Shown here in pieces: positions 12,606-21,238 of a stretch of DNA of 38,286 nt (the first letter of the stretch is position 1; every line of letters starts with the position of its first letter). Under the pieces are notes generated by a model that worked only from the letters and a program-made list of their open reading frames with translations, had not been told where the DNA came from and made no database searches. Location: the IMG/VR virus record IMGVR_UViG_3300034418_011806, positions 1-38,286 of that record; one strand, 5' to 3'. The DNA is from a virus. The translations under genes and the position numbers were made by a program.

Positions 12606-12715
12606 TTTTCCGGTGTTTTCTCGGCAGGTAATTTTGGCGCCGGTCGTAATTTTGATAACACCTGTTTGGCTTTTACTTCTTTAACCAGCGATTGGCAGAG
12701 TATCCACGTGGTCAT
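12602..12715 (-). CDS. 37-aa micro-ORF between terL and the GNAT-like gene
   Basis: ATG at 12715 overlaps the terL stop by 4 nt (ATGA). The TGA at 12602 overlaps the GTG of the GNAT-like gene by 4 nt (GTGA). The reading frame exactly fills an otherwise empty 107-nt gap. The peptide begins MTTWILCQSLVKEVKAKQ and is basic, with a lysine/proline-rich end (PKLPAEKTPEK). I do not recognise it. Exact coupling at both ends is the evidence that it is translated; it may mainly serve to carry ribosomes from terL into the downstream gene. Confidence 0.6.
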   Translation of the reverse strand: MTTWILCQSLVKEVKAKQVLSKLRPAPKLPAEKTPEK

Positions 12716-14403
12716 TTGACACCCACCTTATGCGGGTCGAACCCGCCCTGTGATTTCCAGCCACTCTGGCCATTGCGCTGGCTGCTCCAGCCCTGCTGGC
12801 CGCCCTTGCCCTGTTGGCCGCTGATGATCCCCGCCTGCACACGGTTGCCGCGGATCCCGATGATGCAGTATTGCCCGCCATCCTGGATATCGGAAACCGG
12901 GTGTTTCTTCTCGGGCAGATCCTCATATTCATTGCTGGCCGTGTTGGGCTTTTTCTTGAACCGGTACTGCCCGGCAATTCCGGCAATGTAGAGCTTGCAG
13001 CGTGGGCTGATCAGCAGCGATGTATTGGGCTCGATATAGCCGCGCAGCTCGGCGTCGACGGCGCCCAGGCGCAGGCTGATTTCATTGCTGCCGCTGCCGG
13101 GGATCCGCGCAGGCACATTGAGATAGGACGCGATGATTTCCATCGCATTGAGCTGCCCGGCTTCCTTGTCGGCGCCATGCTCAGCCGCCGGGTCAAACCA
13201 CAGCTTGAGGCGGTTACGGGGTAGGTTCGGGAAATCCTCATTCATCTTGCGCTGCAGTGCCTCGCCAAACCGCGCGGGACCGCAACCGGTGTCGACGAAC
13301 AGCTCATCGATGAACACGATCCGCCCGGGCGCCGGGTTTTGCCCAAACATCGCCGCCGGCGATAGTCCGCCCGTCGAGGCGTCGACCCCGATATGCAGAT
13401 CGATATCGGTTTTGAGCGCGATGGGGCTCGCCGCCACGTGACGCTGATGGTCAAAGCTGGGATGCACGGCCTTGCCGGCGCGGCTATAGCCGAATTTGTT
13501 TTCAACCATGCGGCGCACAAAGTGTTCTTCCTGGTTGTTGACGATGCGCTCGTAATAGCCGTCGTCCAGATTGAACAGGTTCTCGGCGTCCTCCGACATA
13601 CCAGATGGCTGCTGGTAGAAGGCGCGGTCAGGCTTGCGATTGGTCACCAGCGTCCCATAGGTCCAGCTGTCGATCGTGGGCGCGTTCATATCGCCAATCG
13701 CCATCTTCATGCGCTCAGTGGGCGCATAGAGCTTGCGGCCCAGCTGCTGCTCCAGCGCGGCGATCTCGCGCTTGGTCAGCAGGATATTGGCGCTGGGATA
13801 GCGGCCCAGGCGTTGCTCGAGGTCATCGATTGCGCCCTCGGCATGCGTGTCCACTTCGTTGAGCCAGCCGAAAGAATATTCGCGGCCCTTCATCATTGTC
13901 TCGATCGAGTTTTCGTTGAGGCCGGCAAATTCGGTGATCATTTCGAGACGTATGCCGTCCATGCCCATAAAGCGCAGTGTATGGGTCACCGGGCGGTCAT
14001 TGCCACCTTCCCAGGTCGAACCTGAATACCCCTTGTGAAACCACTGTTTCCAGCTTTCCAGCACGGTCTTTTCCACCTGGCGGAAGGTATCGCGCAGCAC
14101 GATGCCTCGGCACATGCGGGTTGGTTTATGATCCTTGGGATGCCAGGCGATCGGCGCCAGGCTGCCACACATGATGCGCTTGAAGGTGCAGGTTGTGGTC
14201 TTGCCGCCGCCTAGCGGCCCCATCAGCACTGCCGTCAGCGAGGTGTCGTTCAGGAAGCCCTGCGCAACAGGACCTGGGGGATAATACGATGAGGGGTTGA
14301 AGTCGCCATGGAAGTCGTACTCAATGGCAAGCTGGCGGGTGCGTTCCTCGGCTGCGTCGCGCAGATCGTCGCGATGGACCAGATCGGCGATATGTTCGCT
14401 CAT
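12712..14403 (-). CDS. terL: Terminase large subunit
   Basis: This 563-aa packaging motor and nuclease shows a Walker A-like loop GPLGGGKTT at about residue 62-70 and a Walker B region YSFGWLNEVD. The C-terminal RNase H-like nuclease has acidic motifs IGVDASTGG and WFDPAAEHGADKE. The far C-terminus is a Gln/Gly-rich flexible tail (SGQQGKGGQQGWSSQRNGQS) before the stop. I start at ATG 14403 (MSEHIAD); an in-frame GTG three codons upstream is possible. It cuts and translocates concatemeric DNA through the portal with TerS. It is separated from terS by an unusual 394-bp G-rich gap. Confidence 0.93.
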   Translation of the reverse strand: MSEHIADLVHRDDLRDAAEERTRQLAIEYDFHGDFNPSSYYPPGPVAQGFLNDTSLTAVLMGPLGGGKTTTCTFKRIMCGSLAPIAWHPKDHKPTRMCRGIVLRDTFRQVEKTVLESWKQWFHKGYSGSTWEGGNDRPVTHTLRFMGMDGIRLEMITEFAGLNENSIETMMKGREYSFGWLNEVDTHAEGAIDDLEQRLGRYPSANILLTKREIAALEQQLGRKLYAPTERMKMAIGDMNAPTIDSWTYGTLVTNRKPDRAFYQQPSGMSEDAENLFNLDDGYYERIVNNQEEHFVRRMVENKFGYSRAGKAVHPSFDHQRHVAASPIALKTDIDLHIGVDASTGGLSPAAMFGQNPAPGRIVFIDELFVDTGCGPARFGEALQRKMNEDFPNLPRNRLKLWFDPAAEHGADKEAGQLNAMEIIASYLNVPARIPGSGSNEISLRLGAVDAELRGYIEPNTSLLISPRCKLYIAGIAGQYRFKKKPNTASNEYEDLPEKKHPVSDIQDGGQYCIIGIRGNRVQAGIISGQQGKGGQQGWSSQRNGQSGWKSQGGFDPHKVGVK

Positions 14404-14797
14404 ATCCCACACCCCGCCAGATCATTCCCCCAGCCCCGGTATGCGCGCACCCCCAGCCCCGGCGCGACAAAGCCCCTTACCCCAGCCCGCGCCGCTTCCA
14501 ACACAGTTTTCGCGGCGGCACCCCTTGGCGAAAATCCAGAACGGTGCGCGCTGGCACCCCCCAAGGGGGGAGGGAGGGGGCCCCTTTGGGGGGAGGCCGC
14601 GCGGGGGGCGGGGGGAGAAAAAAATTCCCCGGGAAAATCGCGATCGCGCCCTGGTCGCGCCTGGTCGTGGCCGATCGGCAAAACAGGGGGGACGGCCTCG
14701 CTGAGCCGATGATTTCCAATGATGGGCGCAACACCCGCCAAGCCATTGGAGCTGCTGTGCTTTTCCAATCCGTGCGACGTGATGCCGTGCGACGCTG
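14404..14797. other. Non-coding G-rich, palindrome-rich gap between terS and terL
   Basis: No credible gene is seen in 394 bp. On the plus strand 14565-14615 holds six runs of 3-6 G, flanked by CCCCCC-AA-GGGGGG (14557-14570), an A7 tract (14617-14623), a TCCCCGGGA palindrome and ATCGCGATCGCG. At 14427-14500 there are about three degenerate ~22-bp units starting CCCCAGCCCCGG. Strong quadruplex or hairpin potential beside the terminase genes makes a packaging site (pac or cos) or an RNA attenuator possible. A low-accuracy assembly stretch is the main alternative. Confidence 0.5.
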
Positions 14798-15313
14798 TCA
14801 TTCGTCGCCCTCTAAGTCCTTGATTTTGCTGGCCTCGCCTTCCTCGATCGGCGTGCCCAGGGAAAGCGCCTGGCGTTCGCCCTGGATGCGCTGCGCCTGC
14901 TCCATCTGGTTGGTGTTGGCCATGATGAACAGCGTCGGCAGCCGCTCGTCTGTCAGCACCAGCTCTGTCGGCTTCTTGCCATGCAGGTAGGGCGCCAGGT
15001 CTGTCGCGCAGCGGCGCTGGAAGTCGAGGATTTCCATCAAACTCACGTCCTCGCCCAGCTCCTTGAGCTTCGCCTGGAGCGATCGCGGGTCCATGGTCAG
15101 CATGTCGCCTTCCCACAGCAGCGGATCTGTCCGCCCCGACTGGTAGTAGAGCTTTTCGAAGTCGACCGACTTGCGGTTCCGCGCCCCTCGAGGCCGACCG
15201 ACGCCCTTGCGCTCGCCCGCGTCCGCCACCGCGTCGAAAAACCCCGACGGCGCGCCATTCTCATCCCCTGTGTCGGGATCGTCTTGCTGGAAAAGGTCAG
15301 GATTTCCGGCCAT
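14798..15313 (-). CDS. terS: Terminase small subunit
   Basis: This 171-aa protein sits upstream of terL, as expected for the DNA-recognition subunit. Residues about 35-50 contain GVGRPRGARNRKS, a basic patch frequently seen near the start of terminase small subunits and HTH-type DNA-binding proteins. The middle (LQAKLKELGEDVSLMEILDF, then QRRCATDLAPYLHGKKP) fits helical TerS-family proteins with the motif A..LAPY.H.K.P. The C-terminus is acidic (DLEGDE). I use ATG 15313; an adjacent in-frame GTG precedes it. The upstream gap holds the TGTCTA array, a candidate binding site for this protein. Confidence 0.8.
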   Translation of the reverse strand: MAGNPDLFQQDDPDTGDENGAPSGFFDAVADAGERKGVGRPRGARNRKSVDFEKLYYQSGRTDPLLWEGDMLTMDPRSLQAKLKELGEDVSLMEILDFQRRCATDLAPYLHGKKPTELVLTDERLPTLFIMANTNQMEQAQRIQGERQALSLGTPIEEGEASKIKDLEGDE

Positions 15314-15354
15314 CACAGCCCAATCCGAATATTTAATGGGTTTGCGCTGGCGGC

Positions 15355-15611
15355 TGTCTGTCTAGGCCTGTCTAGGCGTTGTCTAAATGCTAAGTCATTG
15401 AATTTGCAGCAGCTATTAATGAAAAAAGACACATTAGACAGAATAGACAGACAAACACTCCCGTATACGCGCGCGCGCGCGTATGTGTGAGGCCTATGGG
15501 TGTCTAACCCGTCTAATCCGACTAAAATCATGATTGTGCCAGTGTTTCCAATGCCTTGGGACTTAGACAGCGGCTAGACAGAGCAGGCCCCCGAACCCGG
15601 GTGGCTGTCTA
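15355..15611. repeat. TGTCTA/TAGACA site array
   Basis: TGTCTA occurs at 15359, 15369, 15380, 15501 and 15606. The reverse complement TAGACA occurs at 15435, 15444, 15564 and 15575. One-mismatch copies lie at 15355 (TGTCTG), 15448 (CAGACA) and 15510 (CGTCTA). Neighbouring sites within a block are 9-11 bp apart, about one helical turn, and blocks alternate in orientation: 3 forward, 2 reverse, 2 forward, 2 reverse, 1 forward. The best copies extend to CTGTCTAG. An AT-rich stretch (15386-15435) separates the first two blocks. There is no gene here. Candidates are a replication origin, a TerS site or a late-control element. Confidence 0.85.
15463..15489. other. 27-bp alternating purine-pyrimidine tract (Z-DNA-prone)
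   Basis: The stretch GTATAC(GC)n GTATGTGTG alternates purine and pyrimidine without a break and contains the 20-bp palindrome ATACGCGCGCGCGCGCGTAT (15465-15484). It lies in the middle of the TGTCTA/TAGACA array between inverted blocks. Such tracts adopt Z-DNA or cruciforms under negative supercoiling, which would fit a supercoiling-sensitive origin or promoter. That role is inference. Confidence 0.7.
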
Positions 15612-17063: not shown

Positions 17064-18962
17064 CTAATTCCCTTTCTCTTGCCATGCCCGCAGGTCCTGC
17101 AGGCTGATAAACAGGCAGCGCCGTTGCACCCCGCCTATGCTCACGCGGTTGTCCATCTTGTCGGGGTTGCCCTTGCCGGACTTCATCAGGATCTTGGGCT
17201 GAATGATCGGCTCGGGCCCCTGGCCAAGCGCATATTGCCAGCTGCCGGTGCCGCCCTTGCCGCCCCAGCTGCTGTCGGTGAACAGTTTGGCGATGTCCTT
17301 GCCATCCTTGGGCACGGCCAGCCCCAGGCCGGCGCCGACCATGCCGGCGTCCATTGCCTTGAGCCCGGCGATCGCCAACAGCTTGTTGCCTTCATTGACC
17401 GGCATGGAGCCACCCGGGCCGATGTCCTCGAGGATCTGGCCGATGGTGCGGCGCTCCCCCTTGTTCCAGGCGTCGACCTGGCTGGTCAGGATCTCGGCGA
17501 TGCAGCGCGCCCAGTTGGGCGTCTTGCCGCTGACTTCGGGCGCGCTGTCTGCCGCCAGCATCTGCCCCCAGTGGCCCAGCTGCTCCCAGGGCATTTTGAC
17601 CAACTCCATGCCGTCATCGCCCAGCAGCAGATGGCCAGCCGCCAGGAACGTGCCAAAGGTGTTCTGCCCGCGGCTGTCATGGCCATTTTCGCGCAGCACA
17701 TCGCGGTAGGCCTCATAGAGCTTGGGAAAGTGCTGCCAGCGATCGGCGACGCGCCGCAGCAGGCGCGGCCCGATGGTTTCTGGCGCTGGCAGGGTCGGGA
17801 CTTTCGCGGCCGTGTCGGTCAGCGGCCGCAGCTGCAGCAACGCCAGACGGCTCATTGAGGCCTGCCCGAGGTTGGGCGGATTGATCGCTGAAAACAGAAA
17901 CGTCGATCGCGCCTGAAATTCCACGCCCTGGTGGTTGGCGCCCCCGCGAATGCGGATCGATCCCGATGCGGCGTCGCGCGCCATCTTGACGATCTGCGCC
18001 GCCTGCTCCTGGCCGTCTTCGCCCTCCAGCTCGTCGATGCAGATCGGCAGAGCGTCGTGACCGACGATCTGGTAGAGCCCGGCGCTGGTGGCGTTGGTGG
18101 TCGAAATCATGAACCGCCCAAGAATGGCCTTGAAAAGTCTGTGCAGTTCCGATTTGCCGCTGCCGGCGTCGCCCACCACAAACACGCTCGGGCGCCAGTC
18201 CAGCGCCGCGCCCATCAGCGCCACCCCCAGCCAGCCCAGCCCCAGCATCACGTCGACATCGCCGCGCACAAAATTCCAGCTGCGCAGCGCCTCGACGATT
18301 TCCACGGCCGGATTGTCGGCAACGTCATCGACGGTGTCTGGCCATGGCGTGATGGCGTTGGGCCGCCGCACATAAAAATGTTCGCCCAGCTCGCCTGTGC
18401 CTTCCTGCTGGCTGCCTTCGGGGTTGCTGGGGATATACAGCACGTCGCCGCAATGCAGGATCAGCCGGCCGCGATCGTCCAGCCAGGCGCCCCGGCCGCG
18501 CACCTGGTCAGTCATGCTCCAGGGGCCGCGATCGGCACAGGCGGCGAACAGGTCGCGCCGGGCTTCCTCGGCCTTGAAATTGGTTACCGCGCCGCCTGTT
18601 TTGAAGCTTGGCCATGCCCAGCACAAAAAATCCTCATGCCCGGCAAACAGCTTTTGCATGCGCTCCACGCCCATGGCCTTGTCGCCGGTGTTGAACACCT
18701 GGCCCAGTGTGTCGACGAGGTAGTAGTTTTCGCCCTCATAGCCCAGCGGCCGCACGGGGCATGCCTCGGGCAGATGCCCGGTGTCGTCCAGCGGCCCGGT
18801 CGATGGCCACGCCCCGGGCAGCACGCCATCAAGCGGCTCGCCCTTCTTGGGCCATTTGCGCGGCGAGGCCTTGGCCTTGATGGTAGCCTCCTGCCGCGCG
18901 GCGCCGGTGATGGCGCGGATCCGGCGAATGCCTGTCTCATTGTCGGGCTGGCTGGCGGTCAC
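17064..18962 (-). CDS. Replicative P-loop helicase/ATPase (DUF927/SF3-like)
   Basis: This 632-aa protein resembles the helicase half of phage and plasmid primase-helicases. Walker A is GDAGSGKS at 264-271, preceded by RPSVFVV. Walker B is PICIDELE at about 306-313. A sensor-1 type motif FLFSAINPP lies at 356-363. The N-terminal ~230 residues contain WSMTDQVRGRGAW and LHCGDVLYIPSN, typical of the domain ahead of the ATPase in these proteins. With the separate TOPRIM primase upstream it would form the phage replisome, so DNA polymerase must come from the host. The start is GTG 18962, with GGGAA upstream. Confidence 0.82.
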   Translation of the reverse strand: MTASQPDNETGIRRIRAITGAARQEATIKAKASPRKWPKKGEPLDGVLPGAWPSTGPLDDTGHLPEACPVRPLGYEGENYYLVDTLGQVFNTGDKAMGVERMQKLFAGHEDFLCWAWPSFKTGGAVTNFKAEEARRDLFAACADRGPWSMTDQVRGRGAWLDDRGRLILHCGDVLYIPSNPEGSQQEGTGELGEHFYVRRPNAITPWPDTVDDVADNPAVEIVEALRSWNFVRGDVDVMLGLGWLGVALMGAALDWRPSVFVVGDAGSGKSELHRLFKAILGRFMISTTNATSAGLYQIVGHDALPICIDELEGEDGQEQAAQIVKMARDAASGSIRIRGGANHQGVEFQARSTFLFSAINPPNLGQASMSRLALLQLRPLTDTAAKVPTLPAPETIGPRLLRRVADRWQHFPKLYEAYRDVLRENGHDSRGQNTFGTFLAAGHLLLGDDGMELVKMPWEQLGHWGQMLAADSAPEVSGKTPNWARCIAEILTSQVDAWNKGERRTIGQILEDIGPGGSMPVNEGNKLLAIAGLKAMDAGMVGAGLGLAVPKDGKDIAKLFTDSSWGGKGGTGSWQYALGQGPEPIIQPKILMKSGKGNPDKMDNRVSIGGVQRRCLFISLQDLRAWQEKGN

Positions 18963-20092: not shown

Positions 20093-21238
20093 TTATCCTT
20101 TCCAGTTGAGAACATCATTGGTGTCCTTGCCCCAGGCGGCCGGCATGGCCACCTCGGTCACGGGCTTGCCAAAGCTCTTGAACCGGGCCAGCGCGCGGTC
20201 GAACAGCTCGACCGCCTGCGGCTTGTCCCAGTCATTGTCGCGAAAAATCAGATAGCCTTTGATGCAGGCGTGGTCGGGCACATGCAGATAGCCGCTGAGC
20301 GATCCGGCCGCGTGCATGCGCAGGTCTGGGTCGCTCATGCCCACGCTCAGGGCGTCTTCCATGCCCTCGGTAATCCCTGCCCAGCCTGTCAGCCCCTGGG
20401 CTGCTGCCGCTTCGCAGTTCAGCCCGCTCGGCCCACGCGTCACGCGCACCACCAGCCCGGTGGTTTCGGGGAACATCAGCTTGGCTGATTTGCCCTTGCG
20501 CCTTCCGTCCGGCTTTTCGTCGACCCAGCCGCGCGCCAGCGTATCGAGCTTGCGCTGGCCATCGGGTTCAAAAAGCGTGTAATGCACCGCGCCCAACTTG
20601 CCGGCGCCGTCGACCATGGCGCTGAGCAGGCCCGGAAAAGCCCGATCGGCCTTGCTGGCACCAAATTCGGTGGCTGGCCAATAGTCGCAATCGCCCCGAT
20701 AGCGGAATGAGTTGACGGCCAGATTGGGAATGGCGCCGATATCGATGCCGCGCCAGCGCAGATAGGTTTGGGCCTTGGTGCCCGCTATCTCGCGCTGCGC
20801 CCCAAAAAACGCCTTGCGGGCGCGCTCGATCTTGTCGTGGCGGTCCCTGGCGGCAGCCTCGTCCAGGTCCTGGCGCCGCGCAGCACTCTGCTGCTTGATC
20901 GCCTCGAGCTTGCCCGGATCCATCGTGCGGATGCCAAAGCGGTTCTCCACCCATTCAAGCGCCTGCATGCGCGCTTCGCGGTTTTTCACCAGCCCGGTCA
21001 GGCCATAGGCCACCAGGTCCATGGCGTCGCCGGCGTCGCCATTGGTGAAGTCTTTCCAGCCACCATTGGCATAGACCTTCATTTCGCTGAGGTCGGCGCT
21101 TGATCGCCATTTATTGGCCACCTGCCAGCTGCCATTGCCCTTGCGCTGGGTCTGCTTTTTCCCATGGCCAAACAGCTCGGGCACAATGTCCGACAGGTTG
21201 GTGATCACCAGATCCTTGGCCACGGAAAAGCGGGTCAT
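20093..21238 (-). CDS. TOPRIM-domain DNA primase
   Basis: This 381-aa protein has a C-terminal TOPRIM catalytic fold: the glutamate motif ITEGMEDAL (E291), then YLIFRDNDWD (D334 and D336) and the end KDTNDVLNW, common in phage primases. The first 100 residues (GSWQVANKW, then YANGGWKDFTNGDAGDAMDL) resemble the DnaG/CHC2-like N-domain fold. However, they contain no cysteine, so the usual zinc-binding residues are missing. It would lay primers for replication with the downstream helicase. The start overlaps the previous stop by 1 nt; the stop is 4 nt before the next ATG. Confidence 0.85.
   Translation of the reverse strand: MTRFSVAKDLVITNLSDIVPELFGHGKKQTQRKGNGSWQVANKWRSSADLSEMKVYANGGWKDFTNGDAGDAMDLVAYGLTGLVKNREARMQALEWVENRFGIRTMDPGKLEAIKQQSAARRQDLDEAAARDRHDKIERARKAFFGAQREIAGTKAQTYLRWRGIDIGAIPNLAVNSFRYRGDCDYWPATEFGASKADRAFPGLLSAMVDGAGKLGAVHYTLFEPDGQRKLDTLARGWVDEKPDGRRKGKSAKLMFPETTGLVVRVTRGPSGLNCEAAAAQGLTGWAGITEGMEDALSVGMSDPDLRMHAAGSLSGYLHVPDHACIKGYLIFRDNDWDKPQAVELFDRALARFKSFGKPVTEVAMPAAWGKDTNDVLNWKG

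Follow-up and report, generated by a model that had tools for sequence, protein, structure and literature searches.

A dyad of short iterons in a temperate phage genome is very probably a replication origin of the SaPI/PICI type

The stretch of viral DNA analysed here (38,286 bp, hereafter the window) contains a dyad of TGTCTA iterons that is very probably the phage's DNA replication origin, working in the manner of SaPI/PICI origins, with the iterons predicted to be read by the phage's own AAA+ helicase and two opposed helicase hexamers predicted to load there. This reading draws on properties that we computed directly: the symmetry of the dyad, its conservation, its coupling to a helicase gene, the concerted change of the iteron hexamer, an enrichment of IHF-like sites, the occurrence of six iterons per arm in relatives, and likeness to a satellite origin that has been tested. 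Because the window encodes an integrase and a repressor-like gene together with a full head and tail gene set (portal, capsid, head-tail adaptor, major head, tail and structural proteins), we regard it as a complete temperate phage, and this virion gene set of its own is also why it is not filed as a PICI.

Results

Exact copies of TGTCTA or its reverse complement TAGACA occur 12 times in the window, as against about three times overall when the window is shuffled, and nine of these copies lie within 15359-15611, the number given in a preliminary description of this DNA. That description had listed three further copies with one mismatch, of which there are in fact four (at 15355, 15426, 15448 and 15510), two of them overlapping exact sites. 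Its spacing of 9-11 bp within blocks is correct, and its suggestion of binding to one face of the helix at one-turn spacing fits. The array of five alternating blocks that it reported is real, but it overlooked that the blocks form a single dyad centred on 15474.5, from whose symmetry the copy at 15606 is excluded (Table 1). The sites mirror one another to within 1 bp, with centres at -113, -103, -92, -46 (one mismatch), -37 and -28 on the left and at +29, +38 (one mismatch), +92 and +103 on the right, and the mirrored-base score at the dyad centre (56/120) ranks second among some 37,800 centres in the window. We also used a detector of opposed tandem arrays that runs through all hexamers, with order-1 resamples and 951 kb of other phage DNA as the null. 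The window array scores 8.5, while 100 order-1 resamples of the window peak at 5.0; a score of 6 was reached by none of 180 resamples and nowhere in the 951 kb.

Table 1. Features of the predicted origin and of the genes discussed in the text
Feature	Position	Strand	Basis or remark
Predicted replication origin, a single dyad made of four iteron blocks (outer >>>, inner <<<, inner >>, outer <<)	15355..15590	.	Dyad score; inverted-repeat arms; same element beside helicase genes in relatives
Inverted-repeat arms of the dyad	15368-15400 + 15549-15581		
Outer left iterons, TGTCTA at 15359, 15369, 15380	15359..15385	+	Exact matches
Inner left iterons at 15426 (one mismatch), 15435, 15444	15426..15449	-	Three exact copies at the same place in relatives
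Inner right iterons at 15501 (exact), 15510 (one mismatch)	15501..15515	+	
Outer right iterons at 15564, 15575	15564..15580	-	
Exact TGTCTA outside the dyad symmetry	15606..15611	+	
Alternating purine-pyrimidine tract, 28 bp, spanning the dyad centre; candidate opening site	15462..15489	.	No longer run of this kind elsewhere in the window
AT-rich spacer separating the outer from the inner iterons on the left	15386..15434	.	69% AT vs 38% in the whole window
IHF-like site ATTCAATGACTTA, left arm	15391..15403	-	One mismatch to WATCAANNNNTTR
IHF-like site AATCATGATTTTA, right arm	15523..15535	-	One mismatch to WATCAANNNNTTR
AAA+ helicase (D5/SaPI-Rep-like), proposed initiator	17064..18962	-	Walker-type motifs in alignment; fold matches; gene co-occurs with array
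Helicase C-terminal domain, candidate iteron-binding domain	17064..17531	-	AlphaFold2 pLDDT 85; weak fold matches
Separate primase (DUF7146 + Toprim_3)	20093..21238	-	
Gene in terminase-small-subunit position, beside the origin	14798..15316	-	Place before terL only; no clear family match
Terminase large subunit	12712..14412	-	31% identity to BcepC6B TerL; PHROG 979

The right arm of the dyad is the poorer one, with only four or five recognisable iterons. CGACTA at 15519, two mismatches away from the iteron, may be a decayed third inner right copy, and we found no third outer right copy in the window, where three related elements (L124, L125 and L137) have one. Judged by such comparisons of sequence, the window array is a partly decayed form of the fuller element that relatives carry. 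The solitary TGTCTA at 15606-15611 may be a chance copy or a stand-in for a lost outer iteron.

The centre of the dyad is distinguished by its composition. The alternating purine-pyrimidine tract that had been described as 27 bp long is present with a length of 28 bp, and the second-longest such run in the 38,286 bp measures 14. The AT-rich stretch described earlier likewise stands; the spacers of the two arms are 69% and 56% AT, whereas the dyad centre is 37% AT and alternates purines and pyrimidines instead. Central alternating runs of 19-53 bp are shared by the window and the elements L123, L125, L157, L134, L144, L022, L017, L145 and L179, and the elements of Arsenophonus plasmids have an AT-rich centre in place of the alternating tract. 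The idea of IHF sites came from comparing the outer spacers with one another, and we searched for them with the published consensus WATCAANNNNTTR, allowing at most one mismatch. The window holds eight such sites, two of which lie inside the element, one in each arm. Across the elements, 31 of 65 outer spacers contain the consensus, roughly a sixfold enrichment over resampled spacers (mean 4.7, maximum 10), although related elements are not independent observations. Permuted consensus patterns gave a mean of 5.4, centre spacers 1/34 and flank pieces 42/1169. The same scan found no IHF-like site in the element of a Synechococcus phage; to our knowledge, IHF is not known in cyanobacteria.

The refuting condition in the preliminary description included related phages that lack the sites while keeping the adjacent genes. 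The relatives looked at do have the sites: the array is kept beside terS in two relatives of the window's helicase (L123 and L124, 57% and 55% identity) and in one relative of its terminase (L125, 58%). L124 shows the complete form, >9>11>43<9<9<56>9>9>44<12<11<, which amounts to four triples, or 12 iterons with six per arm, and the same layout occurs in prophages of Stappia, Labrenzia and Flavimaribacter. More distant relatives of the helicase accompany the same dyad plan built from different hexamers: GTTACC in Bdellovibrio phage phi1422, where the array starts 11 bp past the helicase gene, CTCACA in Synechococcus phage MinM1 and GGTTCT in MT835534. Three Arsenophonus nasoniae plasmids have helicases that are 71-74% identical and a layout common to all (four, two, centre, two, four), but the iterons are GTTACC, TGTAAT or TTGTA, with every copy changed in concert, as would be expected if one sequence-specific protein reads every iteron. 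A full element found by way of a scrambled-hexamer control (L145, 2663-2950), which overlaps or adjoins the end of an ORF for a CHC2-type primase, has AGGTCTG(TA) as its iteron, so the hexamer is not fixed. We make no claim that TGTCTA itself is conserved across helicase families, a search by TGTCTA pattern biasing the sample towards it. We rejected a host factor specific for TGTCTA, since the hexamer changes along with the helicase. The records of phi1422, MinM1 and the Arsenophonus nasoniae plasmids that we saw carry no origin annotation.

The Arsenophonus nasoniae plasmids paPv15, paNv_CH14 and paNv_CAN17 (L172, L185 and L186) are 8-12 kb long and, besides the helicase and the origin, encode a terminase small subunit and/or a protelomerase; with this gene content they look like packaged, possibly linear, phage satellites.

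The array is coupled to a helicase gene. A viral scan by DNA pattern alone yielded 24 loci with a dyad array and 95 array-free loci; an AAA+ helicase or primase-helicase gene is present in 18 of the former and two of the latter (p 2e-14). Search seeds came from some of the array loci, and leaving these out still gives 10/16 against 2/95 (p 9e-9). The helicase-free array loci are mostly ended by contig ends. Conversely, when loci were collected by their helicase alone (17 loci), an array scoring above the null was present in 12 of them, at a score unreached in the 951-kb control. Four of the 17 (L174, L176, L183 and L184) show no array, a relaxed search returning only low-complexity matches, which means that some relatives use another origin or that the hexamer has decayed beyond detection. 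Two of them (L174 and L184) are 40-kb phage-plasmids of Phaeobacter and Leisingera that carry a homologue of the window's helicase but in which no array could be detected; the origin of these two may have decayed or be located at another place. Among 46 non-redundant loci with both an array and a helicase gene, 32 have the array no more than about 190 bp from the gene's 3' end, and this holds for the D5_N, VapE-like, DUF5906, Toprim-fusion, Prim-Pol and DUF927 families. In six close relatives of the element (L014, L098, L124, L129, L137 and L158) the distance from the homologous helicase gene is 154-187 bp. The window departs from this rule, with 1452 bp and small genes between array and helicase gene, which counts against the origin reading.

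The number of sites per arm is another regularity, noticed in the course of the analysis and not predicted beforehand. Counting exact sites in 42 non-redundant elements (84 arms), we found a mode of six per arm (41/84) and more than six in only five arms, with the proviso that the iterons of related elements are non-independent observations, which applies to the counts of centres as well. Six is reached in different ways: as 3+3 (L124, L137, L014, L162), as 3+1+2 (L009, L069, L081, L087, L092 and phi1422) and as 4+2 (Arsenophonus).

We modelled the helicase of the window with AlphaFold2 on a ten-sequence alignment. Confidence is moderate (pLDDT 60.6), the AAA+ core and the C-terminus being sound. 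VIA matches, both extending over core and C-terminus, are SCCmec Cch (5dgk; Z 13.4 over residues 195-622) and SaPIbov1 Rep (8tch; Z 11.5 over residues 200-628), and the top ranks in Foldseek are poxvirus D5/E5, NrS-1 and SaPI PriRep (PriRep1, SaPI5). A search of PDB sequences with the helicase profile gave no convincing relative, the likeness emerging only in fold comparison. The model thus places the putative initiator among AAA+ helicases of the D5/SaPI Rep kind. Its C-terminal domain, taken alone, has weak matches (Foldseek E >2; best VIA Z 5.1, to 5vfy), and the best of these are DNA-binding proteins, several of them winged-helix proteins, which is suggestive of a winged helix but only suggestive. 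On this model the C-terminal domain would be the likeliest reader of the iterons.

Discussion

The origin that we propose would work as follows. The AAA+ helicase would read the TGTCTA iterons, about six per arm (three outer and three inner), and IHF, if it binds the predicted sites between them, would bend the DNA so that the outer and inner groups are folded together. One helicase hexamer would assemble on each arm, the two facing each other across the centre, where they would open the DNA at the alternating purine-pyrimidine tract and the AT-rich spacers, and two forks would start, with primers supplied by the separate primase. An alternating or AT-rich centre would ease opening, which is the weakest step of the scheme. 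Ring helicases of this class are hexamers. From this, from the six sites per arm and from the loading of two hexamers at SaPI origins, we infer one hexamer per arm. Firing in this phage, binding of the iterons by the helicase, binding of IHF, loading of two hexamers and the start of melting at the centre are all predictions of the scheme. Besides the distance from the helicase gene, points against the origin reading are the four or five iterons of the right arm, the helicase loci that show no array, the moderate quality of the helicase model and the weak fold matches of its C-terminal domain. GC skew gives no clear sign: there is no minimum at the array and the cumulative skew is near its maximum there, with weak values.

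Likeness to studied systems strengthens the case. The pri-rep-ori segment of EcCICFT073, an E. coli PICI and thus a satellite, of about 11 kb, replicates a plasmid. A deletion of rep puts an end to this replication, and one of ori strongly reduces it (PMC6092414). Autonomous replication of such an origin with its initiator has been shown only for EcCICFT073 and SaPIs (PMC6092414). The ori region of EcCICFT073 (L187, 8997-9284) contains a TGTCTACC/TCTACC dyad, >9>46<22>11>9>31<11<22>46<9<, 17 bp past a D5-type helicase gene. Like the window it has opposed iteron sets arranged as a dyad, the same iteron core (TGTCTACC/TCTACC) and an AAA+ helicase as partner. The window, a complete temperate phage, differs from it in having a central alternating tract, a GC-rich centre and an array 1.45 kb from the helicase gene, and no relation between the two helicases is detectable by Pfam. 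SaPI origins are described as sets of opposed repeats on which two helicases load head to head, as at SV40 (PMC9894130). Those of SaPIbov1 and SaPI1, with Rep and PriRep as self-loading helicases, share with the window the opposed short repeats and the AAA+ helicase initiator, but host phylum, iteron sequence and genome context differ. The two opposed sets of short iterons that characterise SaPI/PICI origins are found in the window, and their location immediately 3' of the initiator gene is found in its close relatives. Phi1422, MinM1 and the Arsenophonus nasoniae plasmids resemble the window in having the dyad plan beside a homologous helicase gene and six iterons per arm, and they differ from it in their hexamers (GTTACC, CTCACA, TGTAAT, TTGTA). 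At SV40 there are fewer sites per hexamer. The origins of SV40 and papillomaviruses, which use SF3 helicases, also load two head-to-head hexamers at opposed sites (PMC9894130), as proposed for the window, but have no homology with it at the DNA level and no IHF.

Other functions have to be weighed against a replication origin, two of which had been offered alongside it in the preliminary description. As a pac-like site, the array would be bound by TerS through its iterons, and terminase would cut nearby to start headful packaging. The array does adjoin the gene before terL in the window, L123, L124, L125 and L014, and terminase genes are the only recognised neighbours in L069, L087 and L101. 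What argues most strongly against packaging is that two E. coli satellites, EcCICFT073 and the CP104681 element, have the same array directly past the helicase gene and no annotated terminase gene nearby; in the latter a TGTCTACC array is placed between primase-helicase and SSB genes. In phi1422 and L185, too, the array comes past the helicase gene, in stretches that lack an annotated terminase gene. The element thus shows none of the dependence on adjacent terminase genes that a headful pac site would have, its adjacency to terS follows from the gene order helicase - origin - terS, and we consider a pac function very unlikely. Still less likely is a late-control centre, at which a phage regulator on the iterons would switch transcription from early to late. 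The array sits between the early operon and the terminase and virion genes, and its alternating blocks could form a repression loop, but its region contains no sigma-70-like promoter, the architecture is kept beside helicase genes in small plasmids without a late operon, and an operator is not expected to show exact symmetry with six sites per arm and concerted change of the hexamer. Late control thus has no support of its own, although a side role of the element in regulation is possible.

Iteron arrays can also serve as plasmid centromeres, and a parS-like partition site bound by a ParB-type protein would account for an array of this kind. The array tracks helicase genes, however, no ParA/ParB family was recognised among the window proteins scanned (small ORFs being partly covered), and a partition system is not expected in a phage that encodes an integrase, which makes partition highly improbable. 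We assign an equally small probability to chance clustering or a simple-repeat artefact. Short motifs do cluster, and a scrambled-hexamer pattern matched 7 viral contigs against 21, but at least one of these matches, L145, proves to be a complete element built on this architecture with another iteron, the detector score of the window array exceeds anything in resampled or real control DNA, and conservation in relatives already refutes chance. By comparison, the origin reading, the other possibility raised in the preliminary description, is strongly supported by the coupling to the helicase and by a tested origin of the same plan in EcCICFT073. The binders proposed there, three small HTH proteins or TerS, are probably wrong, because in phages, plasmids and satellites alike the array goes with the AAA+ helicase gene. 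We also considered a protelomerase telomere, the central ATAC(GC)nGTAT palindrome being reminiscent of N15 telRL, and rejected it as the main reading: the window proteins that we scanned include no recognised protelomerase, and many relatives have a non-palindromic centre.

The replication origin reading has wider implications. The PICI origin plan has been called unique to PICIs (PMC6092414), and we find it in complete phages and plasmids as well. The remark in the preliminary description that it knew of no standard phage element with such a layout was a fair one. The reach of the design into complete phages and plasmids, the rule of six per arm, the IHF-like sites and the alternating centre look new; we found no prior report of the design beyond satellites or of the other three, most subscription papers lying outside the search, and a literature search on TGTCTA or TAGACA origins returned nothing relevant. 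A broader proposition, whose chances of being right or wrong we judge to be about equal, is that one origin design is common to satellites, small plasmids and complete temperate phages from several bacterial phyla. Each arm would have exactly six iterons, enough for a single AAA+ hexamer, in interchangeable layouts (3+3, 3+1+2, 4+2); in hosts that possess IHF, a bend made by it would separate the outer from the inner group, and the DNA would open at a central site. The site count would set the stoichiometry of a head-to-head double hexamer, and the iteron hexamer would drift freely with the initiator. How ring helicases are loaded in opposition at an origin is a long-standing question, and if the number of sites equals the number of subunits, these origins write the loading stoichiometry into DNA. 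An architecture that does not depend on the hexamer also offers a way to locate origins in phage genomes without origin annotation, and families like that of the Arsenophonus plasmids lend themselves, as natural compatibility sets, to the study of joint change of initiator and iteron.

Some arrays encountered in the searches are recorded here as separate observations. Bacteroidales contigs (L163 and L165-L169) carry TGTCTA half-elements without a recognised helicase, and were set aside; those of L163, L165-L167 and L169 have an extra TGTCTA or TAGACA, recur on several contigs of one genome (DBXI01000003, 14, 58) and perhaps belong to a different repeat family. In Tychonema (L160, 6200-6500), the detector found another opposed array, TTGGCA in a 4+4 arrangement, adjoining TGTCTA copies. 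An Atlantibacter plasmid (L173) and Serratia phage MQ-4 (L177) have arrays of TATTAC/GGTAAT and TGTTAC, respectively, past their primase-helicase genes.
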